NCBI GenBank assembly: GCA_021373015.1
Contig: JAJFTJ010000006.1
Location: 1 to 64,000 of the forward strand
Origin: Nitrospiraceae bacterium
GTDB taxonomy: Bacteria > Nitrospirota > Thermodesulfovibrionia > Thermodesulfovibrionales > UBA1546
Length of the DNA: 64,000 nucleotides
Reading direction: 5' to 3'
Shown here: positions 38,537 to 46,602 of the stretch, piece after piece
Layout of the letters: the number at the start of each line of letters is the position of its first letter
How positions within the stretch are numbered: position 1 is the stretch's first letter
Position numbers and translations under genes: made by a program
The notes under the pieces: model-generated
Told to the model about the DNA's origin: nothing
The model's input: the letters and a program-made list of their open reading frames with translations, nothing else
Database searches by the model: none

Positions 38537-38594
38537 TATAATAAACAACAGGCTGGACGCCGTATGTAAAATCCAGTTCGAAGGTGATGTTTTA
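38537..38594 (+). promoter_or_regulatory. Probable promoter and leader of the hdr-met operon
   Basis: TATAAT at 38537-38542 gives a predicted start near 38549 and a ~45-base leader with GAAGGTGA ahead of hdrC. A short inverted repeat CTGGA (38553-38557) / TCCAG (38572-38576) lies in the leader. The -35 match is poor, so an activator may be needed. Confidence 0.4.
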
Positions 38595-39193
38595 TGAAAG
38601 AGACAACTGTTGAATTAAGACCGATACTCTTAAGTGATCTGGCAAAAGAAGTTGTCGAGAGATCAGGTCAGAATATTTATTCATGCTATCAGTGCAGACG
38701 CTGCGCTTCAGGCTGTCCTGTGGGTGAAGAGTCAGGAATAACTCCTGACAGGCTTATACGCTGCATACTGCTTGGAGACCGAGAGAGCGCACTGAATAAT
38801 CTTCTTGTCTGGAAATGCCTTGCCTGTTATACATGCGGCCAGCGCTGCCCGAACAACATCCAGACCGCACGCATCACAGAAACCCTCAAACAGATGTCAA
38901 AAAAAGAGCATCTTGTTCCTCTTGAGTCTGGAGTTGCTGCTTTTCACAATGCTTTCATGAAATCAGTATCTCACTTTGGAAAAGTAAATGAGATTGAACT
39001 CGGCGGACTTTATCAGCTTAAAAAAACCGTTATTGATATAAAAAAAGGACTGTTTAAAGACATAATTAAAACTTTTGCCGAACAGCTGAGGCTAGGGATG
39101 AAAATGCTGAAGAAAAAACGCATGCATATTGCTTTTTTTTCAATAAAGGGATTTTCTGAAATAAAAAATATTTTCAGAAAATCAGGGACTTAA
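38594..39193 (+). CDS. hdrC: Heterodisulfide reductase-like subunit C
   Basis: 199 residues with two [4Fe-4S] motifs: SCYQCRRCASGCPVG near residues 30-45 and KCLACYTCGQRCPN near residues 75-90, as in HdrC/GlpC. It passes electrons between HdrA and the HdrB catalytic clusters. The C-terminal ~80 residues are basic and longer than in minimal HdrC. It ends one base before the hdrB start. Confidence 0.93.
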   Translation: MKETTVELRPILLSDLAKEVVERSGQNIYSCYQCRRCASGCPVGEESGITPDRLIRCILLGDRESALNNLLVWKCLACYTCGQRCPNNIQTARITETLKQMSKKEHLVPLESGVAAFHNAFMKSVSHFGKVNEIELGGLYQLKKTVIDIKKGLFKDIIKTFAEQLRLGMKMLKKKRMHIAFFSIKGFSEIKNIFRKSGT

Positions 39194-39194
39194 A

Positions 39195-40088
39195 ATGACA
39201 GATAAGAAATTGGAACAGGTCGCTTATTATCCCGGATGTTCGCTCCATCTTTCATCGCAGTTCTATGATCTGCAGAACAAGCTTATCTTTCCTAAACTAG
39301 GGATCGAACTTAAAGAGATAGACGACTGGAACTGCTGCGGCGCAACCTCAGCGAGCAAGACAGATGATTTTTTATCAATAGCCCTGCCTGCAAGGAATCT
39401 GGGAATTGCCGATGCAACAGGCCTTTCCGATATATTTATTCCCTGCTCTTCCTGTTACAGCAGGATGCTTACATCCCAGACAACATTAAAAAATGATGCT
39501 GTTCTAAAAAATAGGATAAACAAATATCTGGCAAAAAAAAACGAGGGGAGGATAGAAATAAAAAGCATACTTGAGGTACTGCTTCCCTTGGTTGAATCCG
39601 GAGATATCTCGAATAAAATTACAAAAAAATTAAATGGTTTAAAACCTGTTTGTTATTATGGATGTTTATTGACGCGTTTTCCCAAAGATATTGCTGTGAA
39701 TGATGATGCTGAAAACCCCCAGTCAATGGAAAAAATATGCAATGTGCTTGGCGCTGAACCTTTGGACTGGAATTACAAGACTGACTGCTGCGGAGCTTCT
39801 GCTGCAATTAATGACACCGAGACATCCTTAATCTTAATGTCAAAAATAATAAAAGACGCCGAAGCCTATGGCGCAAATTGTTTTGTAACTACATGCCCTA
39901 TGTGCCATATGAATCTCGATGCGTATCAGGACAGGATACGCTCGAACTATGGCATCAGCGGACATCTGCCTGTATATCTGCTTACTGAACTTATAGGGAT
40001 AGCAATGGGCATAAGCCCTGAAGAGCTTCAGATGGACAGGCACTTTACAGAGGCGGTTAAATTACTAAGGGATATTAAAATAATATGA
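39195..40088 (+). CDS. hdrB: Heterodisulfide reductase-like subunit B
   Basis: 297 residues with both CCG domains: Cys15, then C47-C48-G49 with a downstream CSSCYSRM, and in the second half YYGCLLTR, DCCGASAAI and TTCPMCHMNLD. These ligate the two noncubane [4Fe-4S] clusters of HdrB, so the full cofactor set appears present. In the methanogen enzyme this subunit cleaves CoM-S-S-CoB; the partner here is unknown, since bacteria lack that substrate. It overlaps hdrA by four bases. Confidence 0.93.
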   Translation: MTDKKLEQVAYYPGCSLHLSSQFYDLQNKLIFPKLGIELKEIDDWNCCGATSASKTDDFLSIALPARNLGIADATGLSDIFIPCSSCYSRMLTSQTTLKNDAVLKNRINKYLAKKNEGRIEIKSILEVLLPLVESGDISNKITKKLNGLKPVCYYGCLLTRFPKDIAVNDDAENPQSMEKICNVLGAEPLDWNYKTDCCGASAAINDTETSLILMSKIIKDAEAYGANCFVTTCPMCHMNLDAYQDRIRSNYGISGHLPVYLLTELIGIAMGISPEELQMDRHFTEAVKLLRDIKII

Positions 40089-43000
40089 GTGCAGATAAAA
40101 AAAATAAAATTGGTTCTGTCTTAATCGTTGGCGGCGGTATCGGAGGGATGCAGGCAGCACTTGATCTTGCTGACAGCGAATTCAAAGTCCATATTGTCCA
40201 GAAAGAATCTTCGATAGGCGGCACAATGTCGATGCTGGACAAAACCTTTCCAACAGGCGACTGCGCCATGTGCATGATATCGCCAAAGATGGTCGAGGTC
40301 GGCAGGCACAGGAATATTGATGTACACGCCACCGCAGAACTTATTGAGCTAAAAGGCAGCGAAGGTGATTTCACTGCAAGGATACGCCAGAAAGCCCGCT
40401 ATGTAGATATCAGTAAATGCACTGGGTGTGAAGAATGTGTAAAAAAATGTCCTGTTGAATCTGACAGTGATTATAATCAGGGTCTCGCAAAAAAAACTGC
40501 TATAAATCGTCGCTATGCCCAAGCAGTCCCTGGAGCAGTTGCAATAGATAAGCTCGGCACATCGCCCTGCAGGATTGATTGCCCTGGAGAAGTTAATGCT
40601 CATGCTTATGTTGCACTTACTGCCAAAGGAAGATTTGCTGAAGCCCTTGAGGTGATCAGGCGAACAAATCCTTTCCCTGCAGCATGTGGAAGGGTATGCA
40701 CACATCCATGCGAAGACGCATGTAGGAGAAAAGACCTTGATGAGGCTGTCTCGATCTGTTATCTGAAACGATTCCTCACTGACTGGGAAGACAGAAACGG
40801 CGGTTTTCAGAAGCCTGTAATTCCTGAACAGAAACTGGAAAAAGTTGCTGTAATCGGTGCTGGTCCAGGCGGATTAACATGCGCAAGAGACCTAGCGTTA
40901 AAGGGTTATAAAGTAACTGTGTTCGAAAAAGAAAAAATCGCCGGAGGCGCACTCGCACTCTACATCCCAGAGTATCGTCTTCCAAAAGATGTGCTTAAAA
41001 GAGAGATTGACACTATTCTGTCCTATGGTATAGAGCTTAAACTCAATCAAACACTGGGTAAGGACTTTACCATAGATTCCCTTAAGAAGCAGGGATATAA
41101 GGCTATATTCGTAGCCATCGGAACACATCGCCCGATGAAACTCAATGTTCCAGGAGAAGACAAACAAGGTGTCTGGGACAGCCTGGCCTTTCTCAAAAAA
41201 GCAAACACAGAAGGCAATATAGATAAAATGACAGGAGAAAAAGTGCTGGTCATCGGAGGCGGCAATGCAGCAATAGATTCTGCGCGAGCAGCTAAACGTA
41301 TGGGCGCTGATGTTACTATTATCTATCGCAGAAGCTGTGAGGAGATGCCATGCAGCCCGTTGGAGCTTGAAGAATCAGAGATAGAGGGGGTACATCTTCA
41401 CACTCTTGCTTCACCAATCAAGATATTGGGCGAGGGAAAAGTAACCGGCATCGAGTGTTTAAAAATGCATCTCTCTGAGCCTGATGAGTCAGGGCGTTTA
41501 TGCCCTGTTCCTGTTAATGGCAGCAACTTTACCATAGACTGCGATATTGTTATTACTGCAATAAGCCAGCAAACAGAACATGAGACTATTGAGCAGTCAG
41601 GCATTACTACTAATAAATGGAAATGCATATCTATAGATGAAAACACACTCGCCACAAACATTGACGGAGTTTTTGCTGGAGGTGATGTTGTTACTGGGCC
41701 TTCGACTGTTATTGAAGCCATTGGCATGGGAAGCCGTGCAGCTAAATCCATACACAAATATCTTAGCGGTTCAGACCTGATGGAAGGACTTAAGCAAATC
41801 AAAGACCGTCCTAAGTTTTTAAAAAATGTTGAGGGACTGAAAAAAATTTCTCGCAGGGCTATTATGAAGCTTCTGCCGTCAGAGCGTGAAAGCAACTTCA
41901 AAGAAGTAGAACTTGGATTTAATGAAAAAGATGCGGTTCTGGAAGCACAACGCTGTCTTAACTGCACAGAATGCTGCGAGTGTTATCTATGCGTTGATGC
42001 TTGCGAGGCAAAGGCAATCGATCACGATATGGCTACATCAGAAGATATGGATATCAAAGTAGGCTCTGTAATCTTGAGTCCCGGACTCGACCGTTATGAT
42101 GCGCGTCTCCGAGGAGAACTAGGATATGGCCGCTGGCCTAATGTTGTGACTTCGCTGCAATTCGAACGCATTCTCTCCGCATCTGGACCTTATAAAGGCG
42201 TTGTACAGAGACCGAGCGACAAAAAACATCCTCGCAAAGTTGCATGGATACAGTGCGTAGGTTCAAGGGATTCGCACAATGCAAATCCTTGGTGCTCTTC
42301 TGTCTGCTGTATGTATGCAACAAAACAGGCGATAATCGCCAAAGAACATGATAAGAATATAGAGCCCGCGATCTTTTTCATGGAGATGAGAACATTCGGA
42401 AAAGATTTTGATAAATATGTTGAGCGCGCAAAGAATGAATACGATGTCCGTTACCAGCGGGCAATGGTCTCTGCAGTGCGTGAAGAACCATCTACAGGAA
42501 ATCTTGTTATGCGTTATGCAAAAGAAGACGGCGCTCTCGTAGATGAAATATTTGACATGGTAGTGCTCTCAGTAGGGTTGCAGCCGCACAAAGATGCAAA
42601 AGAACTTGCCGAACTCTGCGGCATAGATACAGACATTTATAATTTTCCAAAGACAAGCAGGCTTGCTCCTGTTGATTCTTCGCGTAAAGGTGTATTTGTC
42701 ACAGGAATTTACCAAGGACCAAAAGATATACCTGAGACTGTAATGCAGGGCAGCGCTGTCGCAGGAAGGGTAATGTCGCTTCTTTCAGAAGCCAGAGGCA
42801 CAGAGACAAAGATCAAAGAGATTCCTGATGAAAAAAATACAGCAGACCAAGAGCCTAGAATCGGAGTTTTCGTATGCCATTGTGGAACAAATATCGCAGG
42901 AACAGTAGATGTTAAAAAGATCGTCGAAGAGATTAAAGATATGCAAGGAGTAGTCTATGCCGAGGACTTGATGTATTCATGCGCGCAGGACAGTCAGGAA

Positions 43001-44515
43001 AAGATCAAACATCTTGTGAGAGAAAAAAATCTTAACAGGGTGCTCGTTGCTTCATGCACTCCTAGGACGCATGAACCTCTTTTCCAGGAAACGATACAAG
43101 ACGCAGGATTGAATAAATATCTATTCGATCTTGCTGATATCAGAGAGCAGTGTTCGTGGTGCCACATGGGCAGGAATAAAGAAGCTACTGAAAAAGCTTT
43201 AAAGATAGTAAAAATGGAACTTGCAAAAACTCGTCTTCTTGAACCTCTTAAAACAGATTCTGTGGGTGTTGTTCATGCTTGCATGATAATCGGAGGCGGA
43301 GTAGCGGGAATGACTGCTGCGCTCTCATTGGCTGATCAAGGATTCGATGTACATATAGTTGAAAAAGAGAATCAGCTCGGAGGATTGGTCAAGAAAGTTT
43401 ATCGCAATATTGAAGGAGATAATATTCAGGAGTTTCTCAAAAAAACGATTACTGCTGTTTCCCTGCATAAAAAAATAACAGTTCATACAGGAGTTGAGAT
43501 CAAAAAAACCGAAGGGTTTGTGGGAAATTTCAAAACTACGCTTACAGATAATGCTGAATTTGAACACGGAGCAATCATTGTAGCAACTGGAGGAGTTGAA
43601 TATACGCCTGTGGAATACTTATACAAAAAAAATGATAAGGTTGTCACACAAAGAGAACTTGAAGAGGAACTCGCTCAAGGGAGAATCTTTAATGCCGATG
43701 AATCTATTGTCATGATCCAGTGTGTTGGTTCCCGCGAAGAACCAAATCAATACTGCTCTCGCATCTGCTGTCAGGATGCTGTTAAAAATGCAATAGCAAT
43801 AAAAGAAAAAAATCCTCATACTGCTGTAATAGTGCTGTATCGCGACATAAGAACTTACGGCCTTAAAGAGGATTATTACAAAAAAGCACGCGACTCAGGC
43901 GTGATATTCATAAGATACGATGTCGATAAAAAACCTGAAGTGCAGCAGACCGGAGATAACCTGTTCGTAAAAACATGGGACTACATTCTTAATAAAGAAA
44001 TAATTCTTAATTCTGACCTGCTGGTTCTTTCTACTGGATTCAGGCCGCACCCAACGAATGATAAGGTCGGAGAGATGTATAAACTCACACGGAACGCAGA
44101 CGGTTATTTTCTTGAAGCGCATGTAAAACTTCGCCCTGTGGATTTCCCAAGCGAAGGAGTATTTGTCTGCGGTCTTGCACATGCGCCAAAAAATATCGAA
44201 GAAACGATCGCACAGGCACAGGCAGCTGCAGGACGCGCCGGAGTTATTCTCTCGCATAAGCGGCTGGCGGTTTCAGGGATTGTTGCAAAACACAATAAAA
44301 ATTTGTGCATGTCCTGTCTTACATGTTTCAGACTCTGTCCTTTTGGTTCGCCTTATATAGATGAAAACGGCAAAATCTCACATAATGAAGTGAAATGCAT
44401 GGGATGCGGTATCTGCGCAGGCATCTGCCCTGCCAAGGCATTCCATGTTAATAATTTTCGTGATGATCAAATACTTGCAATGATCGATTCAGCAGCAGAA
44501 AATAACAAGGATTAA
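40085..44515 (+). CDS. hdrA: Giant HdrA: two HdrA units with an inserted GltD-like NAD(P)H:flavin module
   Basis: 1476 residues, against about 650 for methanogen HdrA. Order: FAD-binding GGGIGG (17-22) with GDCAMCMISPKMVEVGRH; [4Fe-4S] motif C112-C115-C118-C122; GltD-like insert about 155-560 with Cys-rich CGRVCTHPCEDACRR (201-215), FAD site GAGPGG (258-263) and NAD(P)H site GGGNAA (391-396), EMPC, and DGVFAGGD; Fe-S motif about 624-640; rest of the first HdrA unit (IQCVGSRD 722-729); second HdrA unit from 926 with VCHCGTN, SCTPRTHEP, FAD GGGVAG (1070-1075), IQCVGSREE (1211-1219), and two C-terminal ferredoxin motifs (1408-1418, 1438-1448). It should be the flavin bifurcation hub and the pyridine nucleotide entry point. 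Confidence 0.95.
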   Translation: MSADKKNKIGSVLIVGGGIGGMQAALDLADSEFKVHIVQKESSIGGTMSMLDKTFPTGDCAMCMISPKMVEVGRHRNIDVHATAELIELKGSEGDFTARIRQKARYVDISKCTGCEECVKKCPVESDSDYNQGLAKKTAINRRYAQAVPGAVAIDKLGTSPCRIDCPGEVNAHAYVALTAKGRFAEALEVIRRTNPFPAACGRVCTHPCEDACRRKDLDEAVSICYLKRFLTDWEDRNGGFQKPVIPEQKLEKVAVIGAGPGGLTCARDLALKGYKVTVFEKEKIAGGALALYIPEYRLPKDVLKREIDTILSYGIELKLNQTLGKDFTIDSLKKQGYKAIFVAIGTHRPMKLNVPGEDKQGVWDSLAFLKKANTEGNIDKMTGEKVLVIGGGNAAIDSARAAKRMGADVTIIYRRSCEEMPCSPLELEESEIEGVHLHTLASPIKILGEGKVTGIECLKMHLSEPDESGRLCPVPVNGSNFTIDCDIVITAISQQTEHETIEQSGITTNKWKCISIDENTLATNIDGVFAGGDVVTGPSTVIEAIGMGSRAAKSIHKYLSGSDLMEGLKQIKDRPKFLKNVEGLKKISRRAIMKLLPSERESNFKEVELGFNEKDAVLEAQRCLNCTECCECYLCVDACEAKAIDHDMATSEDMDIKVGSVILSPGLDRYDARLRGELGYGRWPNVVTSLQFERILSASGPYKGVVQRPSDKKHPRKVAWIQCVGSRDSHNANPWCSSVCCMYATKQAIIAKEHDKNIEPAIFFMEMRTFGKDFDKYVERAKNEYDVRYQRAMVSAVREEPSTGNLVMRYAKEDGALVDEIFDMVVLSVGLQPHKDAKELAELCGIDTDIYNFPKTSRLAPVDSSRKGVFVTGIYQGPKDIPETVMQGSAVAGRVMSLLSEARGTETKIKEIPDEKNTADQEPRIGVFVCHCGTNIAGTVDVKKIVEEIKDMQGVVYAEDLMYSCAQDSQEKIKHLVREKNLNRVLVASCTPRTHEPLFQETIQDAGLNKYLFDLADIREQCSWCHMGRNKEATEKALKIVKMELAKTRLLEPLKTDSVGVVHACMIIGGGVAGMTAALSLADQGFDVHIVEKENQLGGLVKKVYRNIEGDNIQEFLKKTITAVSLHKKITVHTGVEIKKTEGFVGNFKTTLTDNAEFEHGAIIVATGGVEYTPVEYLYKKNDKVVTQRELEEELAQGRIFNADESIVMIQCVGSREEPNQYCSRICCQDAVKNAIAIKEKNPHTAVIVLYRDIRTYGLKEDYYKKARDSGVIFIRYDVDKKPEVQQTGDNLFVKTWDYILNKEIILNSDLLVLSTGFRPHPTNDKVGEMYKLTRNADGYFLEAHVKLRPVDFPSEGVFVCGLAHAPKNIEETIAQAQAAAGRAGVILSHKRLAVSGIVAKHNKNLCMSCLTCFRLCPFGSPYIDENGKISHNEVKCMGCGICAGICPAKAFHVNNFRDDQILAMIDSAAENNKD

Positions 44516-44543
44516 TTTTTTAAACTTACGCAGGAGAAGGAAT

Positions 44544-45059
44544 ATGGAAAAAATCGATGTTCTAAATGCACAGAATGAAGGCTCCTCTATAGAGAAACCT
44601 GGGCAGAGACCCGAAAACTGGGAACCGAATATTCTGGCATTTGCGTGTCATTACTGCGCATTTGCAGCTGCCGACCTGGCAGGAGTGATGAGGCTTTCTT
44701 ATCCGACTAATGTAAAGATAGTCCGTTTGCCTTGCACAGGCAAGCTGGATCATATTCATGTACTGCATGCTTTTGAAAAAGGCATAGATGGAGTTTTTGC
44801 TGCCGGCTGACTGAAAGGCCAATGTCATTACCTGGAAGGTAATACGAATGCTGAAAAAAGAGTCAACTACATCAAGACCCTGCTTGCAAAGGTGGGAATT
44901 GATCCGCAGCGATTGGAAATATACAACCTCTCTGCGGCAATGGGGCAGAGATGGGCTGACATATGCACAGAGTTTACAGAAAGGATACGCAGGCTTGGAC
45001 CGTCTCCGGTATGGCTGGGTTTGAATATGAAGTCTGCAAAAAAAGGTGAGAAGAAATGA
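44544..45059 (+). CDS. mvhD: MvhD-family electron-transfer subunit, selenocysteine-containing (in-frame TGA at 44808)
   Basis: Read through TGA 44808-44810 the gene codes for 171 residues with Sec at position 89. Before it: ACHYCAFAAADLAG, the [2Fe-2S] MvhD/FlpD signature. Around it: GVFAAG-Sec-LKGQCHYLEGN, which in relatives is AGC. After it: NAEKRVNYIKTLL, LEIYNLSAAMGQRWADI, all conserved family sequence. The stop (45057-45059) overlaps the metV start by four bases. A six-base-pair hairpin (44827-44843) starts 16 bases after the TGA. Function: carries electrons between a dehydrogenase partner, here MetFV, and HdrA. Ribosome site GGAGAAGG. A plain truncation is unlikely because the whole downstream frame is conserved. 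Confidence 0.9.
44808..44843 (+). promoter_or_regulatory. SECIS-like element after the mvhD TGA
   Basis: TGA at 44808-44810, 16 bases, then ATTACC (44827-44832) and GGTAAT (44838-44843) pairing around the five-base loop TGGAA. The distance from TGA to the loop (22 bases) and a G in the second loop position agree with the published bacterial SECIS pattern (16-37 bases, G in the first two loop bases). Confidence 0.75.
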
Positions 45060-45724
45060 TAGTTGCTACTCAGAAACCTATTGATGAAATATGGGCGATG
45101 GTGAAAAAACATAAAAAGATACTTGTGTTTGGATGTAATACATGCGTTGCCGTCTGCCATGCAGGCGGGAAAAAAGAGGCAGAGATACTGGCCTCTTTGC
45201 TCAGGATAAAAGCTGCGCAGGAAGGATTGGATATCGAGATATCCGACAATGCAGTCGAGAGACACTGCGAAAAAGAATTTTTTGATCCTGTTATCGAAGA
45301 TGTAAAAAAACACGATGCAATCCTGTCAACAGCTTGCGGAGTGGGAGTAAATTTTCTAGCAGAACTTCTTGCCGACATCCCTGTTCTTCCCGGATTGAAC
45401 ACACAGTTCTTCGGAGCTGTAAAAGAACCAGGAGTATTTACAGAACTCTGCGCAGGATGTGGTGAATGCATACTGCACCTTACAGGCGGGATATGTCCTG
45501 TCGCAACATGCGCAAAGGGGCTGCTCAATGGTCCATGCGGAGGATGTAAAGACGGCAGCTGCGAGATAAGCCCTGATATAAAATGCGCTTGGGTAAGAAT
45601 CTATGAAAGGATGAAAAAACTTAACAGGCTCGATGAATTCCGTGAAAATATCTTGGAAGCAAAAGACTGGTCTGCTGCGCAAAAACCAAGAACTATCGTA
45701 ACCAGCGAGGAGAAAAGAAGATGA
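45056..45724 (+). CDS. metV: MetV: methylene-THF reductase C-terminal-domain Fe-S protein
   Basis: 222 residues. The front has FGCNTCVAVCHAGGKKE and CGVGVNFLAEL; the back has a cysteine array, LCAGCGECILHLTGGICPVATC followed by GPCGGCKDGSCE. That pairing is the MTHFR_C/MetV family, the Fe-S partner that MetF needs in the Moorella-type methylene-THF reductase. It begins inside the end of mvhD and overlaps metF by four bases, so all three are probably translated in step. Confidence 0.92.
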   Translation: MIVATQKPIDEIWAMVKKHKKILVFGCNTCVAVCHAGGKKEAEILASLLRIKAAQEGLDIEISDNAVERHCEKEFFDPVIEDVKKHDAILSTACGVGVNFLAELLADIPVLPGLNTQFFGAVKEPGVFTELCAGCGECILHLTGGICPVATCAKGLLNGPCGGCKDGSCEISPDIKCAWVRIYERMKKLNRLDEFRENILEAKDWSAAQKPRTIVTSEEKRR

Positions 45725-46602
45725 GCTTTAAAGAGGCAATGAATTCAGGGAAATTTGTTGTTACAGCAGAGGCTGGTCCGCCTAAGGGAACTGACATAAA
45801 GGAACTGCTTCATCATCTTGATATTCTCAAAGGCAAGGTAGATGGATTAAATGTAACAGATAATCAGTCGGCTGTGATGAGGATTAATTCTTTGTCTGTG
45901 TGCAAGATTGCGCTCGATAAAGGACTCGACCCTATTTTCCAGATGACATGCCGTGACCGTAATAGAATTGCTATCCAGTCGGATATACTCGGCGCAAGCA
46001 TACTTGGCATTAAAAATATCTTATGCATAACAGGAGACCATGTATCGGCAGGAGACCATAAGGGAGCAAAACCTGTTTATGACATAGAATCAGTCCAACT
46101 GCTGAAGGCAGTGGACGGACTCAACAATGGAAAAGATATGTCAGGCAATGAACTAAAAGGCGCAACAGACTTTTATCAGGGCGCAGTAGTTACACCTGAG
46201 TCAAATCCACTCGAGCCCCAGCTTATGAAGTTCGAAAAGAAAATAAAAGCAGGAGCAAAGTTTTTCCAGACACAGGCTGTTTACGATATGAAAAAATTCA
46301 AAGAGTTCATGAAATACGCAAGAAAATTTCCAATAAAAATTCTGGCGGGCTTTGTTGTGCTTAAATCTGTTGGTATGGCTTCATTCTTAAATAAAAACGT
46401 CCCGGGCATAAGAGTGCCTCAGGAATTGATAGATGAACTTAAAGCTGCAGGGAAAGAGAAAGCGCTCGACACAGGAATAAATATTACAGCCAGACATATA
46501 AAAGAACTGAAAGAAGAAAATGTCTGTGACGGCGTGCATATCATGGCAATCGGCATGGAAGAAAAAATACCTTTGATAATGGAGCGCGCCGGGCTTCTGT
46601 AA
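45721..46602 (+). CDS. metF: MetF-type 5,10-methylenetetrahydrofolate reductase
   Basis: 293 residues with a TIM-barrel fold: FVVTAEAGPPKGTD near the start, GLNVTDNQSAVMR near residue 40, TCRDRNRIAIQSDILGA near residue 79, ITGDH near residue 104, and FFQTQAVYD near residue 180. It carries FMN/FAD and reduces methylene-THF to methyl-THF. Here it is the last gene of the hdr operon. Coupling to Hdr would let the exergonic methylene-THF reduction drive flavin-based electron bifurcation, as proposed for acetogens. Confidence 0.94.
   Translation: MSFKEAMNSGKFVVTAEAGPPKGTDIKELLHHLDILKGKVDGLNVTDNQSAVMRINSLSVCKIALDKGLDPIFQMTCRDRNRIAIQSDILGASILGIKNILCITGDHVSAGDHKGAKPVYDIESVQLLKAVDGLNNGKDMSGNELKGATDFYQGAVVTPESNPLEPQLMKFEKKIKAGAKFFQTQAVYDMKKFKEFMKYARKFPIKILAGFVVLKSVGMASFLNKNVPGIRVPQELIDELKAAGKEKALDTGINITARHIKELKEENVCDGVHIMAIGMEEKIPLIMERAGLL

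Follow-up and report, generated by a model that had tools for sequence, protein, structure and literature searches.

The mvhD gene of a Nitrospiraceae bacterium is almost certainly a selenoprotein gene, in which the in-frame UGA at 44808 would be decoded as selenocysteine (Sec). The gene is located in a stretch of 64,000 nucleotides (hereafter the window) of contig C6 of a 1.69 Mb genome that consists of 22 contigs and is reported to be 100% complete. The selenoprotein reading follows from a frame that is open through the UGA, a Sec machinery encoded in the genome, Cys at the corresponding position of relatives and a constrained SECIS hairpin. That a Sec-MvhD family exists in bacteria is already known; what is added here, for the sequences compared, is that Sec-MvhD is fixed in one operon class of type IV methylene-THF reductase, in a genome that yielded a single MvhD and a single MetF. 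The features of the locus are given in Table 1.

Table 1. Genes and elements of the mvhD locus in the window
Feature	Coordinates	Strand	Remarks
HdrC-like iron-sulfur protein	38594..39193	+	Fer4 domains; HdrC family matches below curated cut-offs
HdrB-like protein, two CCG domains	39195..40088	+	PF02754; HdrB/SdhE family matches below cut-off
HdrA-like flavoprotein, 1476 aa	40085..44515	+	inserted GltD-like NAD(P)H-oxidoreductase module at ~residues 156-640; no in-frame TGA
mvhD (FlpD/MvhD, PF02662)	44544..45059	+	171 aa including Sec89; translated with TGA=U
Putative recoded UGA codon (Sec89)	44808..44810	+	TGA in nearest orthologs, Cys in Cys-type MvhDs
SECIS hairpin ATTACC-TGGAA-GGTAAT	44827..44843	+	synonymous freezing and compensatory A-U/U-A pair
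metV (MTHFR C-terminal family)	45056..45724	+	PF12225, 2.5e-35
metF, methylene-THF reductase	45721..46602	+	PF02219, 2.1e-41; the genome's only PF02219 match

The mvhD reading frame, its orthologs and the Sec machinery

Preceded by the Shine-Dalgarno-like AGGAGAAGG, the mvhD frame runs from the ATG at 44544 through 88 codons to the TGA at 44808-44810, its sole interruption, and continues through 82 sense codons to a terminal TGA (45057-45059), which overlaps the metV ATG at 45056 by 4 bases (ATGA). The whole frame matched PF02662 over profile positions 1-123 of 123 (1e-47, 161.6 bits, cut-off 22.3). Its two halves also matched separately and contiguously, with residues 30-88 corresponding to profile positions 1-59 and the part after the TGA to positions 62-123. 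Residue 89 is Cys in other MvhDs (motif VAGC-HPGDCHY), and alignment of the orthologs revealed that the invariant Cys/Sec positions of the MvhD region are 35, 38, 64, 89 and 94. With the NCBIfam VhuD exception model NF045873 the product scored 143.5 bits, below the cut-off of 215; by its sequence it is a relative of MvhD and not the hydrogenase-associated archaeal VhuD proper.

A preliminary description of this DNA had claimed an in-frame TGA at 44808 with MvhD sequence on both sides, Cys at this position in relatives and a 4-base overlap with metV, all of which our analyses bear out. It had also anticipated that standard gene calling would split the gene, as it does, yielding an ORF of 88 aa. 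Its count of 83 codons after the TGA is correct as to the continuing frame, but reaches 83 only if the stop is counted.

The ortholog set was composed of the 80 closest relatives from a scan of named genomes and 4 further loci, a sample that is biased by design toward the nearest clade, and TGA was found at the Sec89 codon in 84/84 of these nearest orthologs (Nitrospirota and sulfate-reducing Thermodesulfobacteriota, the latter making up most of those outside Nitrospirota). At nearly all of the ortholog loci, mvhD is preceded by a gene for HdrA and followed by one for MetV, and in most cases by one for MetF as well. A family search of 148 genomes of the phylum identified 8, the source genome included, with one TGA inside mvhD, all at the identical codon. 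MvhD is conserved on both sides of the TGA, with a mean column identity of 79% across the eight aligned rows.

The preliminary description had proposed a search for selA, selB, selC and selD as a test capable of refuting the Sec reading, and all four were found in the genome. The tRNA-Sec is encoded on contig C12 (69 bits, gathering score 47; ARAGORN tRNA-SeC, anticodon tca), and SelA, SelB and SelD were detected with 610.7, 382.8 and 333.9 bits, respectively. An Rfam scan of the whole window returned two tRNAs only. SelD (locus L017, G000:C14:134970-135890) carries its own in-frame TGA in the N-terminal loop (MDYRLTEKVKAAGUAGKVG), and SelD with this UxxK motif is a known Sec form (PMC13188914). 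A hairpin, AGGTCC-GGC-GGACCT, is visible after the SelD TGA; it differs from the minimum-energy fold and was set aside as proof.

SelB was above cut-off in 21 of the 24 ortholog genomes tested, and the three genomes without such a match are possibly incomplete assemblies. Across the phylum, SelB was found in 59/148 genomes and in 8/8 of the TGA-bearing ones, a co-occurrence with a probability of ~5e-4 on the assumption, not valid here, that genomes are independent of one another. Within the window's own order this co-occurrence is weak evidence, because almost every genome there has SelB.

The hairpin downstream of the UGA and other explanations of the interruption

Beginning 16 nt 3' of the TGA, a six-pair stem (44827-44832 with 44838-44843) encloses a small apical loop, UGGAA (44833-44837), which carries a G. 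This agrees with the six-pair hairpin, loop TGGAA and spacing given in the preliminary description, whose claim of a bacterial SECIS layout is much strengthened by covariation and frozen synonymous codons. In archaea, the SECIS element is located in the untranslated region. The folding energy of the mvhD hairpin alone was unremarkable (z -0.8 to -1.6), and mean hairpin energies after codons 38 and 89 did not cleanly separate the Sec and Cys groups; energy was therefore dropped in favor of codon freezing and covariation.

Codons +4 to +11 are synonymously frozen, with a mean same-codon fraction of 0.83 vs. 0.39 (sd 0.12) at 110 other positions, and are the top eight-codon stretch of mvhD by this measure. 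Invariant features of this stretch are the His codon CAT, the Leu codon CTG and, at the aromatic codon, the restriction to TTC or TAC. The stem pair of columns 23 and 33 is A-U where Tyr TAC occurs with Gly GGT (33 sequences) and U-A where Phe TTC occurs with Gly GGA (51 sequences), with 0 mixed cases; the Tyr/Phe change is matched by a synonymous GGT/GGA change at Gly. Across an alignment of 22 sequences, pairing was seen in 98.5% of cells, compared to 90.3% in shuffles and ≤66% when the helix is slid, and RNAalifold found the identical helix unaided. The Tyr/Phe swap tracks the split between Nitrospirota and sulfate reducers, and this is the only stem pair that varies. Parsimony on the protein tree, which is poorly resolved, gave 3 changes at this pair, and the change is possibly a single event between lineages. 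Given the TGA conserved in the orthologs, the frozen synonymous sites and the compensatory pair, the predicted hairpin is far beyond chance; its support comes from evolution and not from energy.

If the TGA were a nonsense mutation or a base-calling error, mvhD would be a pseudogene or an artifact that codes for an 88-residue fragment, which is what standard ORF calling delivers. However, the TGA is present at the matching codon in all 84 nearest orthologs, which come from independent assemblies, the protein is conserved on either side of it at the identity given above, and the hairpin covaries. The orthologs refute this explanation, which we regard as exceedingly improbable. Separate translation of the two halves, by a stop at the TGA and a restart behind it, would accord with the ability of each half to score alone against PF02662. 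However, reinitiation would not restore MvhD, because the first in-frame ATG past the TGA (44940) comes only after the most conserved stretch; an in-frame GTG at 44892 is likewise behind that stretch and has no clear Shine-Dalgarno-like sequence. Moreover, a stop and restart has no need for TGA specifically, for a Cys-replacing position or for a frozen hairpin. Given the late start codons, the conserved TGA at a Cys site and the frozen hairpin, it was rejected, its probability being negligible.

Any readthrough, whether by insertion of another amino acid (e.g., Trp) or by low-level suppression, would formally give the same frame as Sec insertion. Against such decoding, the neighboring genes at 39195-40088 and 45056-45724 use TGA as stop, the homologues among the sequences examined have Cys and never Trp, and genes for the full Sec machinery are present. 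On these grounds this explanation was rejected as well, as very unlikely, and Sec remains the preferred reading of UGA 44808.

Sec at residue 89 or 38 and known Sec-MvhD proteins

The branch that joins the MetVF-linked MvhD forms comprised 110 sequences: 85 with Sec89 and Cys38, 12 with Sec38 and Cys89 and 13 with Cys at both sites. The Sec89 forms are one clade (SH-aLRT 97); in their next-nearest MetVF-linked relatives, either both sites are Cys or residue 38 is Sec. TGA at residue 38 (CxxU), and not at 89, was observed in the sister MetVF-linked MvhDs of loci L158-L162, L164 and L168-L173. In most of the 12 Sec38 genes the UGA is followed by a hairpin of the GGACC-TGGCA-GGTTC type, whose loop style is shared with the Sec89 genes; this hairpin is weaker evidence, because the stretch also encodes a conserved DLAG motif. 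We suggest, with somewhat less than even confidence, that Sec has moved between residues 38 and 89 in MetVF-linked MvhD, each position having its own SECIS with a ACCTGGNAGGT-like core, and that it became fixed in the Sec89 clade, which would make the methyl branch of C1 metabolism selenium-dependent in Nitrospirota and some sulfate reducers.

Deep-branching Sec89 MvhDs were also noticed beside MetV at L151 and L166, where the hdrC/hdrB order differs and the ATTACCTGGAAGGTAAT hairpin is shared. Other MvhD homologues, in genomes G217, G296, G312, G336, G360 and G365, contain two in-frame TGAs and are possibly double-Sec bacterial forms. A sequence search of solved structures found MvhD chains, among which PDB 9sfi_K has X exactly at the positions aligned with 38 and 89, which is consistent with Sec at both.

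The preliminary description was right that Sec forms of MvhD are on record in bacteria, where they are an established family (PMC1794560, PMC2702500, PMC13188914). A 2006 catalogue lists 19 bacterial Sec-FrhD (MvhD) members, those of Syntrophobacter, Syntrophus and Moorella among them, and stresses operons of the form hdrA-frhD-frhG-frhA with hydrogenase subunits (PMC1794560). A 2026 review includes Sec-MvhD among the verified families, with the motif CxxU and two Sec, and places Sec hydrogenase-type proteins in sulfate reducers and methanogens only (PMC13188914). The mvhD of the window is like these in family, in Sec for a conserved Cys, in a bacterial SECIS just past the UGA and in its hdrA neighbor. 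Unlike the 2006 operons, its cluster is without hydrogenase and the partners are metV-metF, and, unlike the reviewed CxxU/two-Sec motif, it has Sec at 89 only and keeps CxxC. Desulfobacterium autotrophicum HRM2 has four Sec-MvhDs (mvhD1, 2, 3, and 5) beside hdrA or hdrL (PMC2702500), an adjacency similar to that in the window, but it has multiple mvhD copies, some with Cys, whereas the source genome has a single match. The archaeal VhuD of Methanococcus is likewise a Sec-MvhD homologue (PMC2933860, PMC11097638), and 9sfi_K has X at the position aligned with 89; it differs in having X also at aligned 38, and archaeal VhuD works with the Vhu hydrogenase.

The type IV methylene-THF reductase cluster and the proposed role of Sec89

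All six genes of a type IV methylene-THF reductase cluster (HdrABC-MvhD-MetVF) are present at 38594-46602 of the window, and their set and order are shared with the type IV reductase of Moorella thermoacetica and Sporomusa ovata (PMC9430772, PMC8760232); the paper on the S. ovata enzyme contains no mention of selenium. One PF02662 match and one PF02219 match were detected in the genome, both within the mvhD operon, and no selenium-free second MvhD or second MetF was found by these profiles. No other methylene-tetrahydrofolate reductase gene cluster appears to exist in this bacterium. With a single MvhD and a single MetF detected, the type IV complex probably depends on selenium.

In methanogen complexes MvhD hands electrons to HdrA (PMC9012536), and it is also counted among the subunits of HdrCBA-MvhD-MetVF, the type IV methylene-THF reductase proposed for Moorella and Sporomusa (PMC9430772, PMC8760232). 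We propose that SelB with Sec-tRNA-Sec would bind the UGGAA-loop hairpin, leading to insertion of Sec at residue 89, and that MvhD, as in homologous complexes, would then pass electrons by way of its [2Fe-2S] cluster into the HdrA of the type IV HdrABC-MvhD-MetVF reductase. Sec89 may be a ligand of, or adjoin, the [2Fe-2S] cluster and tune its potential or its oxidation resistance, a role to which we give about an even chance; our literature search found no paper in which the ligands of the MvhD [2Fe-2S] cluster are assigned. Rather more doubtful is an alternative in which Sec89, instead of being an Fe-S ligand, forms a selenenylsulfide redox pair with Cys38 or Cys94, and electron transfer is gated by this pair. 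Residues 38 and 89 may be partners, given that relatives have Sec at one or the other and that a single solved chain apparently has it at the two together. Sec is commoner as a redox-active residue than as a cluster ligand, and this general tendency also favors a redox pair.

Whichever role Sec89 has, automatic gene calling that is blind to Sec halves the MvhD subunit of a complex that is central to autotrophic or acetate-oxidizing C1 metabolism in uncultured Nitrospirota and sulfate reducers. Operon-linked MvhD occurs naturally in Cys/Cys, Sec38 and Sec89 forms, which offer a clean comparison for the contribution of selenium to an electron-transfer subunit as opposed to a catalytic site. Our literature search found no description of Sec-MvhD as a fixed feature of the MetVF operon class or of Nitrospirota, which is weak evidence of novelty.

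Unlike those of the Moorella and Sporomusa type IV clusters, the HdrA of the window contains an inserted GltD-like module, which suggests direct NAD(P)H input. With this insert it resembles HdrL of D. autotrophicum. Full-length matches to this HdrA, of ~4.36-4.40 kb, were observed at loci L056/L091, L074, and L122; the match is shorter in most orthologs, and the HdrA of locus L059 is 1018 aa.
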